DNA from: Burkholderia sp. USMB20
Lineage (GTDB): Bacteria; Pseudomonadota; Gammaproteobacteria; Burkholderiales; Burkholderiaceae
Direction: 5' to 3'
Length of the DNA: 64,000 nt
NCBI RefSeq assembly: GCF_000949135.2
Contig: NZ_JTAN02000021.1
Location: forward strand, 248,001 to 312,000
A program made the position numbers and the translations under genes. The notes under the pieces were generated by a model that had not been told where the DNA came from, searched no databases, and saw only the letters and a program-made list of their open reading frames with translations. Below, piece by piece: positions 3,820 through 14,520 of the stretch. Positions within the stretch are counted from its first letter, which is position 1. Every line of letters begins with the position of its first letter.

Positions 3820-5269
3820 ATGGGGCGATTTGTCGAAGGTGCAGACCGTAATCAGGCCGTGCTGCTGCCGGAATGCCTCGATGACTTCATCGCCGAGGAC
3901 AATCCGGTCAGGATTATCGACGCATTCGTCGAAGAGCTCGAACTGGTTTCCCTGGGATTTGAAGGGGCCACGCCTGCGGCCACAGGCCGGCCGTCTTACC
4001 ACCCGACTGTGCTGCTCAAGATCTACATCTACGGCTATCTCAATCGTGTGCAGTCGAGCCGTCGCCTGGAGCGAGAGTGCCAGCGCAATATCGAACTGAT
4101 GTGGTTGACTGGCCGGCTTGCGCCGGACTTCAAGACCATTGCCGAGTTCAGGCGAAGCAATGGAGAAGGCATTCGCAACGTATGCCGACGCTTCGTGATG
4201 TTGTGCCGTGACCTGAAGCTGTTCACGCAAGCGGTCGTGGCGATCGACAGCAGCAAGTTCAAGGCGGTCAACAGCCGCGACCGGAACTTCACGCCCAACA
4301 AGATTGAGAAGCGCCTCGAGCAGATCGAGCAAAGCATTCAGCGGTACCTGGATGCATTGGAGACGGCTGATCGCACTCAACCGGTCGAGGTAGAAGCGAA
4401 GACCGAGCGACTACAGGAGAAGATCGACATGCTGCGCGAACAGATGCGAGATCTGAATCGTGCAGCAGAAATCCTGAAAGGCCTCCCCGAAAAGCAGGTC
4501 TCGCTAACCGATCCCGACTCACGCTCGATGATCTCGCAGGCCAAAGGCACGGGCGTGGTTGGCTACAACGTTCAGGTAGCCGTCGACGCCCGGCATCACC
4601 TCATCGTGACGCACGAAGTGACGAACGTCGGCAGCGATCGGGCGCAGTTGAGCCCGATGGCCAAGGCCGCGCGCGACGCCGGGCAAGAAGAAGATGAAGG
4701 CACTGGCAGACCGTGGATACTTCAGTGCACCGGAAATCAAGGCGTGCGATGACGCTGGCATTGCTGCATTGGTGCCCAAATCGCAGACATCCAGCGCCAA
4801 GGCCGACGGGCGGTTCGACCGGGCTGACTTCGTCTATATCGCCGAGGATGATCAGTATCAGTGCCCGGCCGGTCAACGGGCGATTTACCGATACAGTTCA
4901 GTTGAGGGCGGCAACCTGATGACCCTGCGTACCTACTGGAGCAGTGCGTGTCCGCGATGCCCGATCAAGAGCCAGTGTACGCCGGCTGATTACCGACGAA
5001 TCCGGCGGTGGGAGCACGAAGCGGTGCTTGAGGCGATGCAGCAAAGGCTGGATCACCAGCTCAACGCCATGACGATACGACGCCGTACGGTCGAACATGT
5101 GTTCGGCACGCTCAAGCACTGGATGGGCGCGACTCACTTCCAGACACGCGGGCTTGGCTGCGTCGCGGCAGAAATGAGCTTGCATGTGCTGGCATACAAC
5201 CTCAAGCGCGTCATCAGGATTCTGGGGTTCTCCAAGGCAATGCAAGCGATGAGGTTGGCAGGCGCATGA
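3820..5269 (+). pseudogene. IS1182-type transposase, frameshifted
   Basis: Catalyses cut-and-paste movement of the IS when intact. The N-terminal part (GRPSYHPTVLLKIYIYGYLN) and the three acidic positions are readable: Asp in VAIDSSKFKAV, Asp in ADRGYF, Glu in RRTVEHVFGTLKHWMG. The two halves lie in different frames. Around 4678 the expected Asp-Ala-Met-Gly-Lys reads Asp-Ala-Gly-Gln, as if two bases of the ATG codon were lost, and the C-terminal half continues one frame over from about 4679 to the stop. There is no slippery A-run or hairpin there to support programmed frameshifting, so a disabling mutation (or a sequencing error) is the simplest reading. An in-frame TTG at 3802 is an alternative start. 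Confidence 0.8.
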
Positions 5270-9912: not shown

Positions 9913-10965
9913 TCACCGGTCCGCCGCGCCGCCTTCGGCGACCGCAGCATCATACAACGCCGTCTGCGCGATCGCCGCGGCGATGGCCGCGTCGTCGTGC
10001 GTGCCGTCGAGCATGCCCCAGCGCCGGTACTGCAACAGGAACCACCGGCCTTCCTGCGGATCCGGCCGGTTCACGGCGCCGCCGTCGTGGAAGCGGATCG
10101 GCAGCGGCGGCTGCGCGAACGGCCCCGGGCCGTAGTCGCCGAGCAGGCGCGGCGCGATCAGCCGGGCCGGTACGCCGAGCGCATCGGGCGACGCGAGCCA
10201 GCCGGCCGCGTCGCGACGGTGCGCGGCGCTGTCGAGCCACGCGCACGCATCGACGAGCGTGCGGATCAGCGCGCGCGCGGTGGCCGGATACAGCGCGACG
10301 AAATCGCGCCGGGCCGCGAGCACCTTCTCCGGATGATCGGGCCAGATCTCGCTGGTGACGGCGACGGTCCGGCCGGCGCCGCACGCTTCGGCCACCGCGT
10401 GCCACGGCTCGCCCGCGCAGAAGCCGTCGAGTTCGCCGCTCGCGAGCGCCGCGACCATCTCGGGCGGCGGAATCACGACGCTGCGCACGTCGCGCAGCGG
10501 ATCGATGTCGTGCGACGCGAGCCAGTGGTTCAGCCACATCGCATGCGTGCCGGTCGGGAAGGTCTGCGCGAGCAGCGGCTTGCGGCCGAGCGTCGCGAGC
10601 GCCGCGCGGACGTCGCCGCTGGCGCGGTAGGCGTCGGCGAGGCCGCGGGCGAACGTGATCGCCTGGCCGTTGCGGTTCAGCACCATCAGCGCGGCCATGT
10701 CGGCCTGCGGGCCGCCGATGCCGAGCTGCAGCCCGCACACGAGTCCGTACAGCGCGTGCGCGGCGTCGAGTTCGCCGCTCAGCAGCTTGTCGCGCACGGC
10801 GGCCCAGGACGGCTGGCGGCTCAGTTCCAGCGTCAGGCCGTGGCGCGCGCCGAGATTCAGCTGCTGCGCGACGATCAGCGGGGCCGCGTCGCTCAGCGCG
10901 ACGAACCCGAGACGAAGATGCGCGCGTTCCGGCGCGGCGGGAGGCGAAGGGTTCATGGCATTCAT
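9913..10965 (-). CDS. nasS: NasS, cytoplasmic nitrate/nitrite sensor
   Basis: A 350-aa protein homologous to the NrtA/CmpA nitrate-binding proteins (LRLGFVALSDAAPLIVAQQL at the start, SVVIPPPEMVAALASGELDG and CAGEPW later). It has no signal peptide or lipobox, which separates NasS from transporter binding proteins. In characterised NasS-NasT systems, NasS holds NasT inactive until nitrate or nitrite binds. It starts within the nasT stop codon (ATGA overlap), so the two are translationally coupled in the order nasT-nasS. A second ATG three codons in is possible. The neighbours confirm a nitrate role. This call is firmer than a NrtA transporter call because no permease or ATPase genes follow. 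Confidence 0.87.
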   Translation of the reverse strand: MNAMNPSPPAAPERAHLRLGFVALSDAAPLIVAQQLNLGARHGLTLELSRQPSWAAVRDKLLSGELDAAHALYGLVCGLQLGIGGPQADMAALMVLNRNGQAITFARGLADAYRASGDVRAALATLGRKPLLAQTFPTGTHAMWLNHWLASHDIDPLRDVRSVVIPPPEMVAALASGELDGFCAGEPWHAVAEACGAGRTVAVTSEIWPDHPEKVLAARRDFVALYPATARALIRTLVDACAWLDSAAHRRDAAGWLASPDALGVPARLIAPRLLGDYGPGPFAQPPLPIRFHDGGAVNRPDPQEGRWFLLQYRRWGMLDGTHDDAAIAAAIAQTALYDAAVAEGGAADR

Positions 10966-11558
10966 GACGGTTGGGTCGCATCGAGCAGTTGCCGCGCGAC
11001 GTCGACGATGCGCAGGCCCTGGTCCATCGCGCGCTTGCGCAGCAACGCATACGCATCGTGCTCGGACAGCCTGCGCTGATCCATCAGCAGGCGCTTCGCG
11101 CGATCGATCAGCTTGCGTTCGGCGAGCTCGCGCTCGACGTCGGCGAGCCGGCGGCGCAGCGCATCGTCGTGCGAGAAACGCGCGAGCGCGACTTCGAGGA
11201 TCGGCGCGAGGCGTTCGGCCGACAGGCCCTCGACGAGATACGCGCTGACGCCGGCGCCGACCGCCGCGTGAATCAGCGCCTGGTCGGCATCGTGGCTGAA
11301 CATCAGCACGGGGCGCGGCGCGGTCGCGTGCATCACGGCCAGTTGCTCGAGCGTGTCGCGCGACGGCGAATCGGTATCGATGATCACGACGTCGGGGCGC
11401 TGCTCCTCGACGGCCGCGGGCAGGCGCGCGGGCGTCGCGACGTCGTTGAGCATCTCGTAGCCGAGGCGCGCGAGCGCGTCGCCGAGTTCGCCGATCGGCT
11501 TGTCGGTGTCGGTGACGAGCAGCACGCGCAGGCGTGCGGGCGGGGCGGACGAACTCAT
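10962..11558 (-). CDS. nasT: NasT, ANTAR-domain transcription antiterminator
   Basis: A 198-aa response-regulator-like protein. The N-terminal receiver-type domain (about 5-125) starts LRVLLVTDTDKPI and has a PDVVIIDTDSPS strand in place of the usual phospho-Asp motif. The C-terminal ANTAR domain (about 135-195) shows AKRLLMDQRRLSEHDAYALL then RAMDQG and VARQLL, the signature for binding paired hexaloop RNA hairpins. When released from NasS, NasT binds leader RNA and prevents terminator formation. Candidate RNA targets are present upstream of both narK and cobA in this window. It overlaps nasS by 4 bp and lies 171 bp downstream of cobA on the same strand. Confidence 0.92.
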   Translation of the reverse strand: MSSSAPPARLRVLLVTDTDKPIGELGDALARLGYEMLNDVATPARLPAAVEEQRPDVVIIDTDSPSRDTLEQLAVMHATAPRPVLMFSHDADQALIHAAVGAGVSAYLVEGLSAERLAPILEVALARFSHDDALRRRLADVERELAERKLIDRAKRLLMDQRRLSEHDAYALLRKRAMDQGLRIVDVARQLLDATQPS

Positions 11559-11729: not shown

Positions 11730-12491
11730 CTACGCCGCCCGCGACAGGAGCGCCTCGCCGGCGATATCGGTGCGCTGCACGGCGGCTTCGCCGATCGCCG
11801 CGCCGACCAGCATCACGGCCGGGCTGCCGAGCTCGGCCGCCGCGACGCCGCGCGCGAGACCGCCGAGCGTGCCGGTCCAGCGGCGCTCGTGCGGGGTGCC
11901 GGCCCACTGCACGGCGGCGGCCGGCGTCGACGCGGGCAAGGCGGCGAGCAGGCCCGCCGCGATGCTGGCCACGCGGCTCATGCCCATGTAGATCGCGAGC
12001 GTGGTGCCGGTCGCCGCGAGCGCCGCCCAGTCGGGTTCGCCGTGGTCCTGGCGATGTGCGGTGACGAACGTGACCCCCTGGCAGTGCTCGCGGTGCGTGA
12101 GCGAGATGCCGAGGCTCGCGGCGGCCGCGAAGCCCGACGAGATGCCGTTGACGATGTCGACGGGAATCGCGGCGGCGCGCAGCGTCGCGAGTTCCTCGCC
12201 GGCGCGGCCGAACAGCAGCGCGTCGCCACCCTTGACGCGCACGACGTGCGCGCCGCGCAGCGCGTAGCGGCGCATCAGTTTCTCGATGAACGCCTGCGGC
12301 GTGGAGCGGCAGCCGCCGCGCTTGCCGACGCGGATCACGCGCGCGTGCGGCGCGAGTTCGACGATGCCGGGCGCGACGAGATCGTCGAGCAGCAGCACGT
12401 CGGCGGCCGCCAGCGCCTTCACGGCCTTCAGGGTGAGGAGATCGGGATCGCCGGGCCCGGCGCCCAGCAGCGTGACTTTTCCAGTCGTCAT
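11730..12491 (-). CDS. cobA: Uroporphyrinogen-III C-methyltransferase (SUMT)
   Basis: A 253-aa SAM-dependent methyltransferase that makes precorrin-2, the first step from uroporphyrinogen III to siroheme, the cofactor of NirB and CysI. VTLLGAGPGDPDLLTLKAV at the start and VGKRGG followed by VRVKGGDALLFGRAGEEL are family hallmarks, and the length matches stand-alone SUMT (not the CysG fusion). It is the first gene of the leftward transcript cobA-nasT-nasS. Its promoter region carries a sigma-54 site and a paired-hexaloop leader. Co-regulation with nitrite reductase makes sense because nitrite reduction raises siroheme demand. Confidence 0.92.
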   Translation of the reverse strand: MTTGKVTLLGAGPGDPDLLTLKAVKALAAADVLLLDDLVAPGIVELAPHARVIRVGKRGGCRSTPQAFIEKLMRRYALRGAHVVRVKGGDALLFGRAGEELATLRAAAIPVDIVNGISSGFAAAASLGISLTHREHCQGVTFVTAHRQDHGEPDWAALAATGTTLAIYMGMSRVASIAAGLLAALPASTPAAAVQWAGTPHERRWTGTLGGLARGVAAAELGSPAVMLVGAAIGEAAVQRTDIAGEALLSRAA

Positions 12492-12598
12492 GTCGTGTTC
12501 CAGTGCCGCGTGCGTGCGGCGATCGATAACGCATTGTTGCTTGCGGCGGCGGCGGGCGGTCGACGCGATCGCGACATCCGGCCGTGCCGGGCACGGGG

Positions 12599-12682
12599 GG
12601 ACGTCGTTGTCCTGATCTGTTGCGCCCGCCTGCGACGGCGGGCCCGACTTGCGGGGACTGCCCACCGGCGCCGTTGCCGGTG
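12599..12682 (-). promoter_or_regulatory. Candidate ANTAR-binding leader of cobA (two hexaloop hairpins)
   Basis: Read on the minus strand, the first hairpin is CACCGGC, loop AACGGC, GCCGGTG (12682-12663). The second is GGAC, loop AACGAC, GTCC (12612-12599). Both loops have A at position 1 and G at position 4, the rule for ANTAR target RNAs. The second hairpin overlaps the left arm of a larger stem (12605-12573: 7 bp, 2x2 internal loop, 6 bp) with which it would compete. That stem is not followed by a U-run, so classical termination is not certain here. Confidence 0.68.
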
Positions 12683-12694
12683 TGGTCCGGAATC

Positions 12695-12710
12695 AGCAAT
12701 ATCCGGGCCA
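12695..12710 (-). promoter_or_regulatory. Sigma-54 promoter of the cobA-nasT-nasS transcript
   Basis: On the minus strand it reads TGGCCC, five bases, TTGCT, one mismatch from the sigma-54 consensus TGGCAC-N5-TTGCW with the GG and GC at the correct spacing. Transcription would start near 12685, immediately before the first hexaloop hairpin. Confidence 0.72.
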
Positions 12711-12913
12711 ACCTGATCGAACCGGGCGGCGAGCGCGGCTACAGACGTGGCGACAAGTGCGGCAATAAGCGCGGCGATACACACGGCGCGACCGCCACGA
12801 CGGACGCCGGCCCGCATGCGGCCGCGGGGCCGCGGCGCACGCGATGCCGCATCGGCGTGCATCGCGGCCCCATCCACGCGCACCGCGATGTCGCACGGCG
12901 ACAGTGCTGCAGC

Positions 12914-12928
12914 GCACCGTATCTGTGC
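12914..12928. promoter_or_regulatory. Possible NtrC-type activator site
   Basis: GCACCGTATCTGTGC is a near-palindrome resembling the NtrC consensus GCACC-N5-GGTGC with one change. It lies between the two divergent sigma-54 promoters, about 115 bp from the narK promoter, a usual enhancer distance. One weak site alone is not strong evidence. Confidence 0.35.
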
Positions 12929-13029
12929 CTCGCTGCATCCCGACGCATCATGCGCGGCGTCGTGCAGCGATGCGTGCAACGGCCGGCGAGCCTTGTGCGG
13001 CGGGGCTGCAACTGCGATTCGGGCGGATA

Positions 13030-13045
13030 TGGCACGGCGTTTGCA
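13030..13045 (+). promoter_or_regulatory. Sigma-54 promoter of the narK-nirBD-nasA operon
   Basis: TGGCACGGCGTTTGCA matches the sigma-54 consensus TGGCAC-N5-TTGCA exactly, with -24 GG and -12 GC correctly spaced. The predicted start, near 13056, falls one base before the first hexaloop hairpin. This means nitrogen-limitation control through RpoN and an NtrC-type activator. Confidence 0.85.
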
Positions 13046-13056
13046 TAAGCTGGCTC

Positions 13057-13133
13057 GGGCGAATCAACGACGATTCGTCCGCAGTACCGATTACCGACGC
13101 GCCCGGCAACGGGCTTCATGGGCAACGGCGTCC
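13057..13133 (+). promoter_or_regulatory. ANTAR (NasT)-responsive leader of narK: hairpins P1 and P2
   Basis: P1 (13057-13080) has a 9-bp stem and the hexaloop AACGAC. P2 (13120-13133) is GGGC, loop AACGGC, GTCC. Both loops obey the A1/G4 rule for ANTAR targets. P2 overlaps the left arm of the intrinsic terminator at 13126-13179, so P2 bound by NasT and the terminator exclude each other: the expected antitermination switch. Confidence 0.8.
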
Positions 13134-13179
13134 TACACATCGGGTCTCGACGAGACCGGGTGTGCAGGACGCCGTTTTT
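13126..13179 (+). terminator. Leader attenuator terminator before narK
   Basis: A long hairpin: CGGCGTCCT pairs with AGGACGCCG (13126-13134 with 13166-13174), then ACAC/GTGT, then GGTCTC/GAGACC around a 3-nt loop, followed directly by TTTTT at 13175-13179. It sits 15 bp before the narK ATG and downstream of P1/P2, so it would stop transcription unless NasT binds. Confidence 0.85.
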
Positions 13180-13194
13180 CGTTTGGCGGATGAC

Positions 13195-14520
13195 ATGACC
13201 GACAAAGCTACCCGTATCGATCTCTTCAGCTTCCGCACCGCGCCGATGCGCGCGTTCCACATGACGTGGATGGCGTTCTTCGTATGCTTCTTCGCGTGGT
13301 TCGCATGCGCGCCGCTGATGCCGCTGATTGCGCGCGAGTTCCACCTCACCGCGGCACAGGTCGCGAACATCAACATCGCCGCGGTGGCCGCGACGATCGC
13401 CGTGCGGCTGCTGGTCGGCCCGATGTGCGACCGCTTCGGCCCGCGCCGCGTGTATGTCGGGCTGCTCGTGCTCGGCGCGATTCCGGTGTTCGCGGTGTCG
13501 TTCTCGCACGACTATGTGACGTTCCTGATCTGCCGGCTCGGCATCGGCGCGATCGGCGCGGGCTTCGTGATCACGCAGTACCACACGTCGGTGATGTTCG
13601 CGCCGAACGTGGTCGGCACCGCGAACGCGACCACCGCCGGCTGGGGCAACGCGGGCGCGGGCGCGACGCAGGCGATGATGCCGCTGCTCGTCGCGGCCGG
13701 CCTGATGCTCGGCTTCGGCGATGACGCGTCGTGGCGCATTGCGCTCGTCGTGCCGGGCGTCGCGATGCTCGCGATGGCCTGGGCGTACTGGCGCTTCACG
13801 CAGGACTGCCCGCAAGGCGACTTCGTCGCGCTGCGCAAGCAGGGCGTGACGGTCGACAGCGGCAAGAAGGGCGGCTGGGCGAGCTTCTTCGCCGCGTGCG
13901 GCAACTATCGCGTGTGGATGCTGTTCGTCACGTACGGCGCGTGCTTCGGCGTCGAGGTGTTCATCCACAACATCGCCGCGCTGTACTACGTCGATCACTT
14001 CAATTTATCGCTGAAGGACGCCGGCTTCGCGGTCGGGATGTTCGGGCTGCTCGCGCTATTCGCCCGCGCGCTCGGCGGCTGGCTGTCGGACAAGATCGCC
14101 GCGCGCCGCAGCCTCGACGTGCGCGCGACGCTGCTGTGCGCGCTGATCGTCGGCGAAGGGCTCGGGCTGGTCTGGTTCTCGCATGCGCAAGGCATCGGCA
14201 TGGCGCTCGTCGCGATGCTGACCTTCGGCCTCTTCACGCACATGGCCTGCGGCGCGACCTATGCGCTGGTGCCGTTCATCGACCGCAAGGCGCTCGGCGG
14301 CGTCGCCGGGATCGTCGGCGCGGGCGGCAACGTCGGCGCGGTGGCCGCGGCGTTCCTGCTGAAGGGCGTCGGCGACGTGCAGCACACGCTGAGCCTGCTC
14401 GGGCTCGCCGTCACCGCGACCGCGCTGTGCGCGATGGCCGTGCGCTTCAGCGAAGAACACAAGGCACGCGAGGCCGAGCTGCGCGACCGCGCGCTCGCCG
14501 CCGCCGGCGTCGCGAACTGA
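13195..14520 (+). CDS. narK: Nitrate/nitrite transporter, NarK/NasA type (MFS)
   Basis: A 441-aa, 12-helix major facilitator that brings nitrate (and possibly nitrite) into the cytoplasm. The MFS loop motif VGPMCDRFGPRRVYVG lies around residue 75. The NarK-type glycine-rich signature GNAGAGATQAMMPLL lies around residues 147-161, and a second glycine-rich stretch IVGAGGNVGAVAAAF near residue 372. The start follows GGCGGA by a few bases and the leader terminator by 15 bp. It is the first gene of the assimilation operon, 21 bp before nirB. Confidence 0.93.
   Translation: MTDKATRIDLFSFRTAPMRAFHMTWMAFFVCFFAWFACAPLMPLIAREFHLTAAQVANINIAAVAATIAVRLLVGPMCDRFGPRRVYVGLLVLGAIPVFAVSFSHDYVTFLICRLGIGAIGAGFVITQYHTSVMFAPNVVGTANATTAGWGNAGAGATQAMMPLLVAAGLMLGFGDDASWRIALVVPGVAMLAMAWAYWRFTQDCPQGDFVALRKQGVTVDSGKKGGWASFFAACGNYRVWMLFVTYGACFGVEVFIHNIAALYYVDHFNLSLKDAGFAVGMFGLLALFARALGGWLSDKIAARRSLDVRATLLCALIVGEGLGLVWFSHAQGIGMALVAMLTFGLFTHMACGATYALVPFIDRKALGGVAGIVGAGGNVGAVAAAFLLKGVGDVQHTLSLLGLAVTATALCAMAVRFSEEHKAREAELRDRALAAAGVAN

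Follow-up and report, generated by a model that had tools for sequence, protein, structure and literature searches.

A 64,000-nt stretch of Burkholderia sp. USMB20 (contig NZ_JTAN02000021.1, positions 248,001 to 312,000; hereafter the window) carries a nitrate assimilation cluster with nasS, nasT and cobA on the minus strand and narK, nirB and nasA on the plus strand (a small nirD frame lay outside the domain scan). In the 703-bp intergenic region between the divergent cobA and narK genes, two sigma-54 promoters point outwards, each followed by a leader with two hexaloop hairpins of the type targeted by ANTAR proteins such as NasT. It is likely that these leaders combine NtrC/sigma-54 control with NasT control on both sides, and that the U-tract of the cobA-side leader has decayed in the window. 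An earlier note, made from the letters of this DNA, had described the two leaders as symmetrical. What it observed is confirmed, sequence and coordinates included, and how it interpreted the observation is supported in part: the symmetry is not borne out, since the narK leader is a predicted complete attenuator, whereas its counterpart facing cobA in the window retains a promoter, both hexaloops and the stem and lacks a U-tract.

Promoters and hexaloop leaders between cobA and narK

The sigma-54 consensus used for counting mismatches is TGGCACG-N4-TTGCW. As the earlier note had it, the site facing narK matches perfectly and the one facing cobA with a single mismatch (Table 1); the features of sigma-54/NtrC-dependent promoters, i.e. 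GG at −24, GC at −12, the consensus and upstream NtrC-like sites, are all present. In both leaders of the window, the first hexaloop begins 21–22 nt past the −12 element. We compiled 44 divergent cobA/narK regions of Burkholderia and Caballeronia (the window plus 43 loci), and a permissive sigma-54 pattern matches the narK side of all 44. All 44 likewise carry, between the two promoters, the motif GCAC-N7-GTGC, which we take to be an NtrC site, with 96 sites in total compared to 0.6 in mononucleotide shuffles; the pair of such sites in the window is probably an NtrC enhancer common to both promoters. Sigma-54 control of both sides, as claimed in the earlier note, further agrees with published RNA-seq data of a B. 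cenocepacia H111 ntrC mutant at 0.3 mM NH4Cl, in which the log2 change was −11.4 for cobA (BCAM1687), −8.1 for nasT, −4.2 for nasS (as the nitrate-binding protein BCAM1689), −6.6 for narK and −6.5 for nirB (PMC5491218). A 2025 survey also predicts sigma-54 promoters at ANTAR genes, nasT among them, in β- and γ-proteobacteria (PMC12316311).

Each promoter is followed by a first hairpin (P1) with an AACGRC loop (AACGAC on the narK side, AACGGC on the cobA side) and, after linkers of 38 and 50 nt, respectively, by a second hexaloop hairpin (P2) with a 4-bp stem that overlaps a larger stem, the arrangement originally described. Both leaders thus show the hallmarks of a dual-hexaloop ANTAR target, namely two hairpins whose stems have 3 bp or more and whose hexaloops bear A1 and G4. 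An intrinsic terminator overlapping P2 is found in the narK leader, including the TTTTT run noted earlier (13124–13179), whereas the cobA leader of the window has the stem without the U-tract. The presumed ligand is encoded next door, where nasT, correctly recognized at the outset as an ANTAR gene (PF03861), lies beside a gene for an NMT1-like sensor, i.e. the Pfam domain arrangement of a NasS–NasT system.

Covariation argues for the P1 stems of both ANTAR-type pairs proposed for the two sides. In shuffles that leave kinship in place (n = 500), none reached the number of pairs changed on both sides, be it on the narK side (6 of 9 tested pairs, 43 sequences) or on the cobA side (6 of 7 pairs, 41 sequences). 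The pairs of P1 and P2 combined are intact in 94.1% of the cells of the narK-side alignment and in 98.0% of those of the cobA side. For the larger stems, both-side changes occur in 8 of 23 pairs of the narK-side terminator (reached by 4 of 500 shuffles) and in 4 of 14 pairs of the terminator-like stem before cobA (10 of 500). Across the same sequences, the linker between P1 and P2 spans 38–61 nt on the narK side and 20–73 nt on the cobA side, and often contains a spacer hairpin.

The combination of promoter and leader is more than chance would give. A strict scan, requiring a sigma-54 site with at most three mismatches followed by two AANG hexaloops on stems of at least 4 bp, covered 80 NasT loci and the window (1.62 Mb, both strands), with six window proteins serving as labels. 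It returned 97 matches, two of them in the window; among the 95 in the loci, 91 lie no more than 300 nt before a match to CobA, NarK, NirB or NasT, and the other four 1.4–1.6 kb before NirB. The reversed, non-complemented sequence of the same set gave 0 matches. Conservation of the loops in related Burkholderia, on which the earlier note had staked its claim, is borne out by leaders on both sides in 40 of the 44 divergent regions. The four exceptions are L027, where the narK-side leader has no P1 of 4 bp, L028, whose cobA leader is lost, and L029 and L030, where it is rearranged. As a separate observation, the cobA leader is deleted in L028/L234, L221 and L154, and a sigma-54 motif now lies close upstream of cobA (67 nt in L028).

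Loss of the U-tract on the cobA side

The two leaders differ at the end of the larger stem. Using a self-devised measure, the T count in the 8 nt past the 3′ arm (lost, at most 3; intact, at least 5), the narK-side U-tract has at least 5 T in all 44 leaders of the NasT-sampled regions. An intact narK-side U-tract coincides with a lost one before cobA in 31 of the 44 loci, and the reverse was found in none.

For a sample independent of nasT, 130 loci were collected around cobA, from genomes with a CobA match (40 of 45 Paraburkholderia, 40 of 44 Caballeronia and 50 of 64 Burkholderia, where the genus label of some genomes is that of the named locus used as centre). P2 was found in 119 of these, giving 120 leaders with P2 and a 3′ arm once the window is included; because the search demanded AA and GTCC, the 11 leaders scored as P2-less include degenerate ones such as L156 and L211. 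Among the 86 leaders in which nasT follows cobA, 53 have lost the U-tract, compared to 0 of 34 where nasT was not found in that place. An earlier version of the measure, which took the highest T count of any 8-mer and called at least 5 intact, gave intact U-tracts in 33 of 34 unlinked and 29 of 85 linked leaders. By the T count past the 3′ arm, the U-tract is intact in 20 of the linked leaders from Caballeronia (n = 38) and in 6 of those from Burkholderia (n = 47). The unlinked leaders are 33 from Paraburkholderia and one from Caballeronia; NirB is encoded on the other side of cobA in 30 of 40 Paraburkholderia loci, and in P. xenovorans, the only species checked, nasT is on chromosome 2 and cobA with nirB on another contig.

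Judged by NasT identity (97–99% to the eight best loci, all Burkholderia) and by the cobA tree, the window groups with genomes of the Burkholderia cepacia complex (Bcc) type. Of the 31 Bcc-type cobA leaders, window included, 29 have at most 3 T at the U-tract place. On the cobA tree, a quick tree with SH-aLRT (Shimodaira–Hasegawa-like approximate likelihood ratio test) support only, the trait requires 9 changes with both directions counted, or 11 at a threshold of at most 4 T, and the lost state falls into three well-separated clades: the Bcc type, a four-row Burkholderia group (L226, L228, L231 and L230, the last at 4 T) and a Caballeronia clade.

What has been retained in the Bcc-type leaders can be read from the mean pairwise identity of their parts (29 of 31 leaders could be divided, two were unusable). 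The sigma-54 site (99.1), P1 (99.0), P2 (94.1) and the 3′ arm of the stem (94.5) stand against 77.5 for the 20 nt past P1, 53.2 for the U-tract place and 53.5 for the last 40 nt before cobA; third codon positions of cobA, at 84.7, lie above the U-tract place as well. High identity of the parts next to a low value for the U-tract place suggests that the hairpins are under selection although the U-run is not. In the U-less Caballeronia clade (12 leaders), the parts are conserved and so is the U-tract place (86.9). A1 and G4 occur in both loops of all 29 usable Bcc-type and all 12 U-less Caballeronia leaders; the search itself required those letters, and since the parts were located via motifs that ask for them, these loop counts carry no independent weight, whereas the values for stem and arm are less affected.

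Close upstream of cobA, the window also contains a GC-rich hairpin of the form GCCGC...GCGGC (12505–12520, minus strand). A hairpin stem of at least 5 bp is present within the last 60 nt before cobA in 49 of 51 Burkholderia leaders, with varied sequence, a count uncorrected for chance.

A model of dual control and its alternatives

In the model we consider likely, a shortage of ammonium would cause the shared NtrC enhancer to fire the two divergent sigma-54 promoters, and each transcript would open with a NasT-binding leader composed of P1 at the 5′ end, the spacer hairpin and P2, the 3′ half of which doubles as the 5′ arm of the larger stem. As long as nitrate is absent, NasS would hold NasT, the narK-side stem and U-run would form and transcription would stop; with nitrate or nitrite, freed NasT would hold P1 and P2 and block the larger stem, allowing polymerase to enter narK-nirBD-nasA. 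The cobA leader would be the same device placed before cobA-nasT-nasS. Where its U-tract is intact, NasT would have to antiterminate its own gene, creating positive feedback; where it has decayed, as in the window and 28 further of the 31 Bcc-type leaders, cobA-nasTS would probably be driven mainly by NtrC/sigma-54. The hexaloop hairpins of U-less leaders would remain under selection and still bind NasT. We infer NasT binding, the transcript starts, the nitrate response and weak termination on the cobA side in the window.

Of the features of a NasT-autoregulated operon, the window has the gene order and a leader upstream of nasT, with the U-tract absent. The positive autoregulation envisaged in the earlier note is consequently doubtful in the window and plausible in those lineages of Caballeronia and Burkholderia that have kept the U-tract, while the extension of control to cobA is supported, as is that to nasT-nasS, the latter from gene order. 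Going one step further, the arrival of nasT behind a NasT-dependent terminator may have produced a self-locking loop, from which at least three lineages were released by losing nothing but the U-tract. The NasT-binding hairpins may then have been retained for another task, for instance NasT titration or the adjustment of a Rho-type stop, and the U-less cobA leader would be an ANTAR leader no longer acting via intrinsic antitermination; this is a tentative proposal, possible rather than probable.

The retention of promoter, both hexaloops and stem 3′ arm in U-less leaders would also be expected if the positive feedback were closed everywhere, the U-less cobA stem still stopping transcription via Rho or as a U-independent hairpin and NasT antiterminating its own operon, and the four stem pairs changed on both sides fit this as well. 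Such a scenario is unlikely given that the Bcc-type U-tract place drifts like a neutral spacer (53.2 versus 53.5), whereas the terminator before narK never has fewer than 5 T of 8 in the 44 regions. The A1/G4 hexaloops kept in U-less leaders (29/29 Bcc-type, 12/12 Caballeronia) might instead serve a role outside antitermination, either by letting the abundant leader of NasT titrate free NasT, a form of negative feedback, or by shielding the cobA-nasTS RNA; residual termination would explain the same conservation, however, and we regard a role of this kind as quite improbable. It is highly improbable that the conserved hairpins are general 5′ stabilizers or DNA-level elements with a ligand other than NasT. 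P1 does lie near the expected 5′ end, as stabilizing hairpins do, and searches with Rfam models or with P2 alone are unspecific by themselves (30 P2 matches versus 11 in the reversed control), but the pairing of A1/G4 hexaloops, the overlap of P2 with a terminator, the close association with nitrate genes and the proximity of 13 of 15 Burkholderiales RF03032 matches to NasT- or NasS-like genes all speak against this.

Several points weigh against the model of dual NtrC and NasT control with a decayed cobA-side U-tract. Folding, suggested as a check in the earlier note, gave z −6.2 for the narK leader (0 of 200 shuffles equally stable) and z −2.6 for the cobA leader (2 of 200), and the minimum free energy fold of the whole cobA leader contains neither P1 nor P2. 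Further pair types show no excess in the cobA-side stem (326 of 500 shuffles reach the count) or in the narK-side terminator (275 of 500). Three of the four P2 stem pairs on the narK side are invariant in the 43 sequences and hence provide no covariation evidence; near-invariance says nothing on pairing either way, so that it is sequence conservation alone that points to P2. A kinship-free test of gene order against U-tract loss had two starred, or four possible, independent pairs (sign test p = 1). Of the 33 P2-bearing cobA leaders from Paraburkholderia without nasT linkage, only 8 have a sigma-54 site and P1 at the usual spacing. The U-tract place of the Caballeronia clade is conserved, which confines neutral drift to the Bcc type. 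The ntrC RNA-seq experiment used low ammonium, nitrate goes unmentioned, and narK and cobA were both expressed, so the two leaders are not separated by it (PMC5491218). The 5′ end of NfiR, a regulatory noncoding RNA of P. stutzeri, was mapped 29 bp past the sigma-54 site, not 12 (PMC6606865). Finally, the window linkers of 38 and 50 nt exceed the 5–12 nt of the Enterococcus faecalis eut linkers, where lengthening to 14 nt cut induction (PMC3369931); the motif definition in the same source speaks of a 'variable linker' and allows targets without terminators (PMC3369931).

If the model holds, nitrogen status (NtrC/sigma-54) and nitrate (NasT) would be joined in one divergent control region, offering a mechanism for part of the published B. 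cenocepacia NtrC regulon. The natural series of intact, U-less, deleted and nasT-unlinked leaders would allow the cost of a self-controlled antiterminator to be tested. Short RNAs reported at narK RNA and P11 loci may be attenuated leader transcripts.

Known relatives, regulon size and features of the window

By analogy, the narK side belongs to an established type of NasT antitermination leader, represented by NalA, the leader of Pseudomonas nirBD, and by the narK RNA of Rfam; judged from its sequence, the cobA side is the new variant, a leader before the regulator's own genes nasT-nasS that lacks the U-tract in the window. NalA serves a single operon with cobA as its last gene, reportedly nirBD-PA1779-cobA in P. 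aeruginosa according to a 2012 title by Romeo in reference lists, whereas in the window a separate divergent leader, its U-tract lost, precedes cobA and the nasTS genes that follow. Shared with NalA are the sigma-54 start and, as predicted here, antitermination by NasT freed from NasS (PMC12830290). In Paracoccus, nitrate drives NasS–NasT dissociation and NasT binds the nasA leader (PMC3795266). The nasTS-nasABGHC system of Paracoccus denitrificans resembles the window in NasS–NasT, the NasT-bound nasA leader and an NtrC site at nasT, and differs in that the text available describes no terminator leader before nasT (PMC5424462, PMC3795266). EutV and NasR targets likewise combine a pair of A1/G4 hexaloop hairpins with a terminator that overlaps P2, but involve other sensors, a short linker in the case of eut and a promoter outside the unit (PMC3369931). 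ANTAR RNA targets in Burkholderia were already predicted by Ramesh and others (PMC3369931); among literature titles and abstract openings, none was found on a Burkholderia NasT leader.

The search with an RNA family model proposed in the earlier note did not place the leaders in a known family. Rfam yields no match in the window at gathering cut-off, and a permissive search scores the two leaders at 22.4 and 21.6 bits against RF03032 (cut-off 43.2) and the narK side alone at 18.3 bits against P11 (RF00625; cut-off 70). The RF03032 consensus resembles them in its sigma-54 promoter, GGCaC...UUGCU, followed by a hairpin with the loop AACGGC; a second hairpin, CGAC-AAAGAC-GUCG, is present and left unpaired in the model. 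The RF03032 linker is short, whereas those of the window measure 38 and 50 nt and hold a spacer hairpin. In 150 Burkholderiales genomes, RF03032 has 15 matches at E ≤ 0.001 (L085–L099). Within the fetched stretch, 13 of these loci contain NasT- or NasS-like genes, L089 a NasA-like gene only and L093 none of the six labels; sigma-54 site and P2 were re-found by script in 10 of the 15. Three A1/G4 hexaloops follow the sigma-54 motif in L095, L097 and L099, which leads us to speculate that the spacer hairpin took the place of a middle hexaloop.

P11 differs in being catalogued as a Pseudomonas small RNA. It matches 10 of 274 genomes (L261–L270), and all 10 loci hold NirB-, NasT- or NasS-like genes; by script, sigma-54 site, P2 and T-run are present in 8 of 10, with a P1 hexaloop at the usual spacing in only 5. 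NfiR has been called a P11 homologue and precedes the gene of assimilatory nitrite reductase (PMC6606865). P11 may simply be NalA, and the sequences suggest that narK RNA and P11 (with NfiR) belong with NalA as NasT leaders driven by sigma-54, the Rfam models having taken in the DNA promoter. When P11 was run against the B. cenocepacia genome by itself, the four matches were weak (E 0.3–0.9); the same search also matched 9 of 14 control genomes and was therefore not used.

Regulon size was approached with a tighter pattern, which matches in 61 of 65 Burkholderia genomes and in 0 of 65 reversed controls; owing to its gap limits, many genomes show just one leader instead of two, which makes the counts lower bounds. 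Read by eye, the matches listed comprise only the two leaders and five copies of a third, in four genomes. This third leader, again with sigma-54 site and double hexaloop plus a long T-run, occurs at L274:497–706, in L271, L272 and L273, and in G267:C8. In L274, the sole copy scanned, it lies upstream of an open reading frame with PilJ and MCP-signalling domains (PF13675, PF00015). PilJ is a nitrate sensor, and it is possible that the gene encodes a NasT-controlled nitrate chemoreceptor.

The P2 motif alone was rejected as a mark of many targets, the 30 matches in 10 genomes (2–4 per genome) comparing to 11 in the reversed control. Of the 18 P2-only loci that were read, nine have a sigma-54 site upstream and nine do not and were taken as chance; L122, among the other 12, is the third leader. 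Also rejected, for most relatives, was the idea that nasT generally lies behind such a leader: a CobA match is missing from 30 NasT loci, which come largely from Paraburkholderia and otherwise from some Trinickia, metagenome-assembled genomes and others, and of these only L052 has a leader in which a hexaloop pair follows the sigma-54 motif. A sigma-54 motif with at most three mismatches is present in the 600 nt upstream of nasT in 25 of these 30, and in 19 (e.g. L061, L062) it sits 24–27 nt before the estimated nasT start.

Table 1. Features of the cobA/narK region and its flanking genes (window coordinates)
Feature	Position	Strand	Basis
nasS, NMT1-like protein; sensor holding NasT (role from homology)	9913..10956	-	PF13379
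nasT, receiver-like domain and ANTAR RNA-binding domain	10962..11558	-	PF03861 and PF00072
cobA, uroporphyrinogen-III methyltransferase (siroheme for NirB)	11730..12491	-	PF00590; name via homology to BCAM1687 (PMC5491218)
U-tract place of cobA leader, reads GCGATCGC, one T: lost	12565..12572	-	T count
cobA-side terminator-like stem overlapping P2, 8 + 6 bp	12572..12606	-	folding, paired changes
cobA-side P2 hairpin GGAC-AACGAC-GTCC (loop 12608-12603)	12599..12612	-	motif; stem invariant in 41 sequences
cobA-side spacer hairpin GCCCGCC-GTCGCA-GGCGGGC between P1 and P2	12624..12643	-	folding
cobA-side P1 hairpin, 7-bp stem, hexaloop AACGGC (12675-12670)	12663..12682	-	covariation
sigma-54 promoter facing cobA, TGGCCCGGATATTGCT = TGGCCCG-N4-TTGCT, one mismatch	12695..12710	-	pattern match
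two GCAC-N7-GTGC sites 21 bp apart, probable shared NtrC enhancer	12893-12907 and 12914-12928		motif count
sigma-54 promoter facing narK, TGGCACGGCGTTTGCA = TGGCACG-N4-TTGCA, zero mismatches	13030..13045	+	pattern match
narK-side P1 hairpin, 10-bp stem, hexaloop AACGAC (13066-13071)	13056..13081	+	folding, covariation
narK-side spacer hairpin GCCCG-GCAA-CGGGC between P1 and P2	13101..13114	+	folding
narK-side P2 hairpin, 4-bp stem, hexaloop AACGGC (13124-13129)	13120..13133	+	motif, conservation
narK-side intrinsic terminator overlapping P2, TTTTT at 13175-13179	13124..13179	+	folding, conserved T-run
narK, nitrate/nitrite major facilitator superfamily transporter; then nirB and nasA	13195..14517	+	PF07690

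Beyond the cluster, a gene of the uracil-DNA glycosylase superfamily (PF03167; 9169–9816, minus strand) follows nasS on the same strand, and an open reading frame at 4694–5269 (plus strand) resembles a transposase fragment, as judged by eye.

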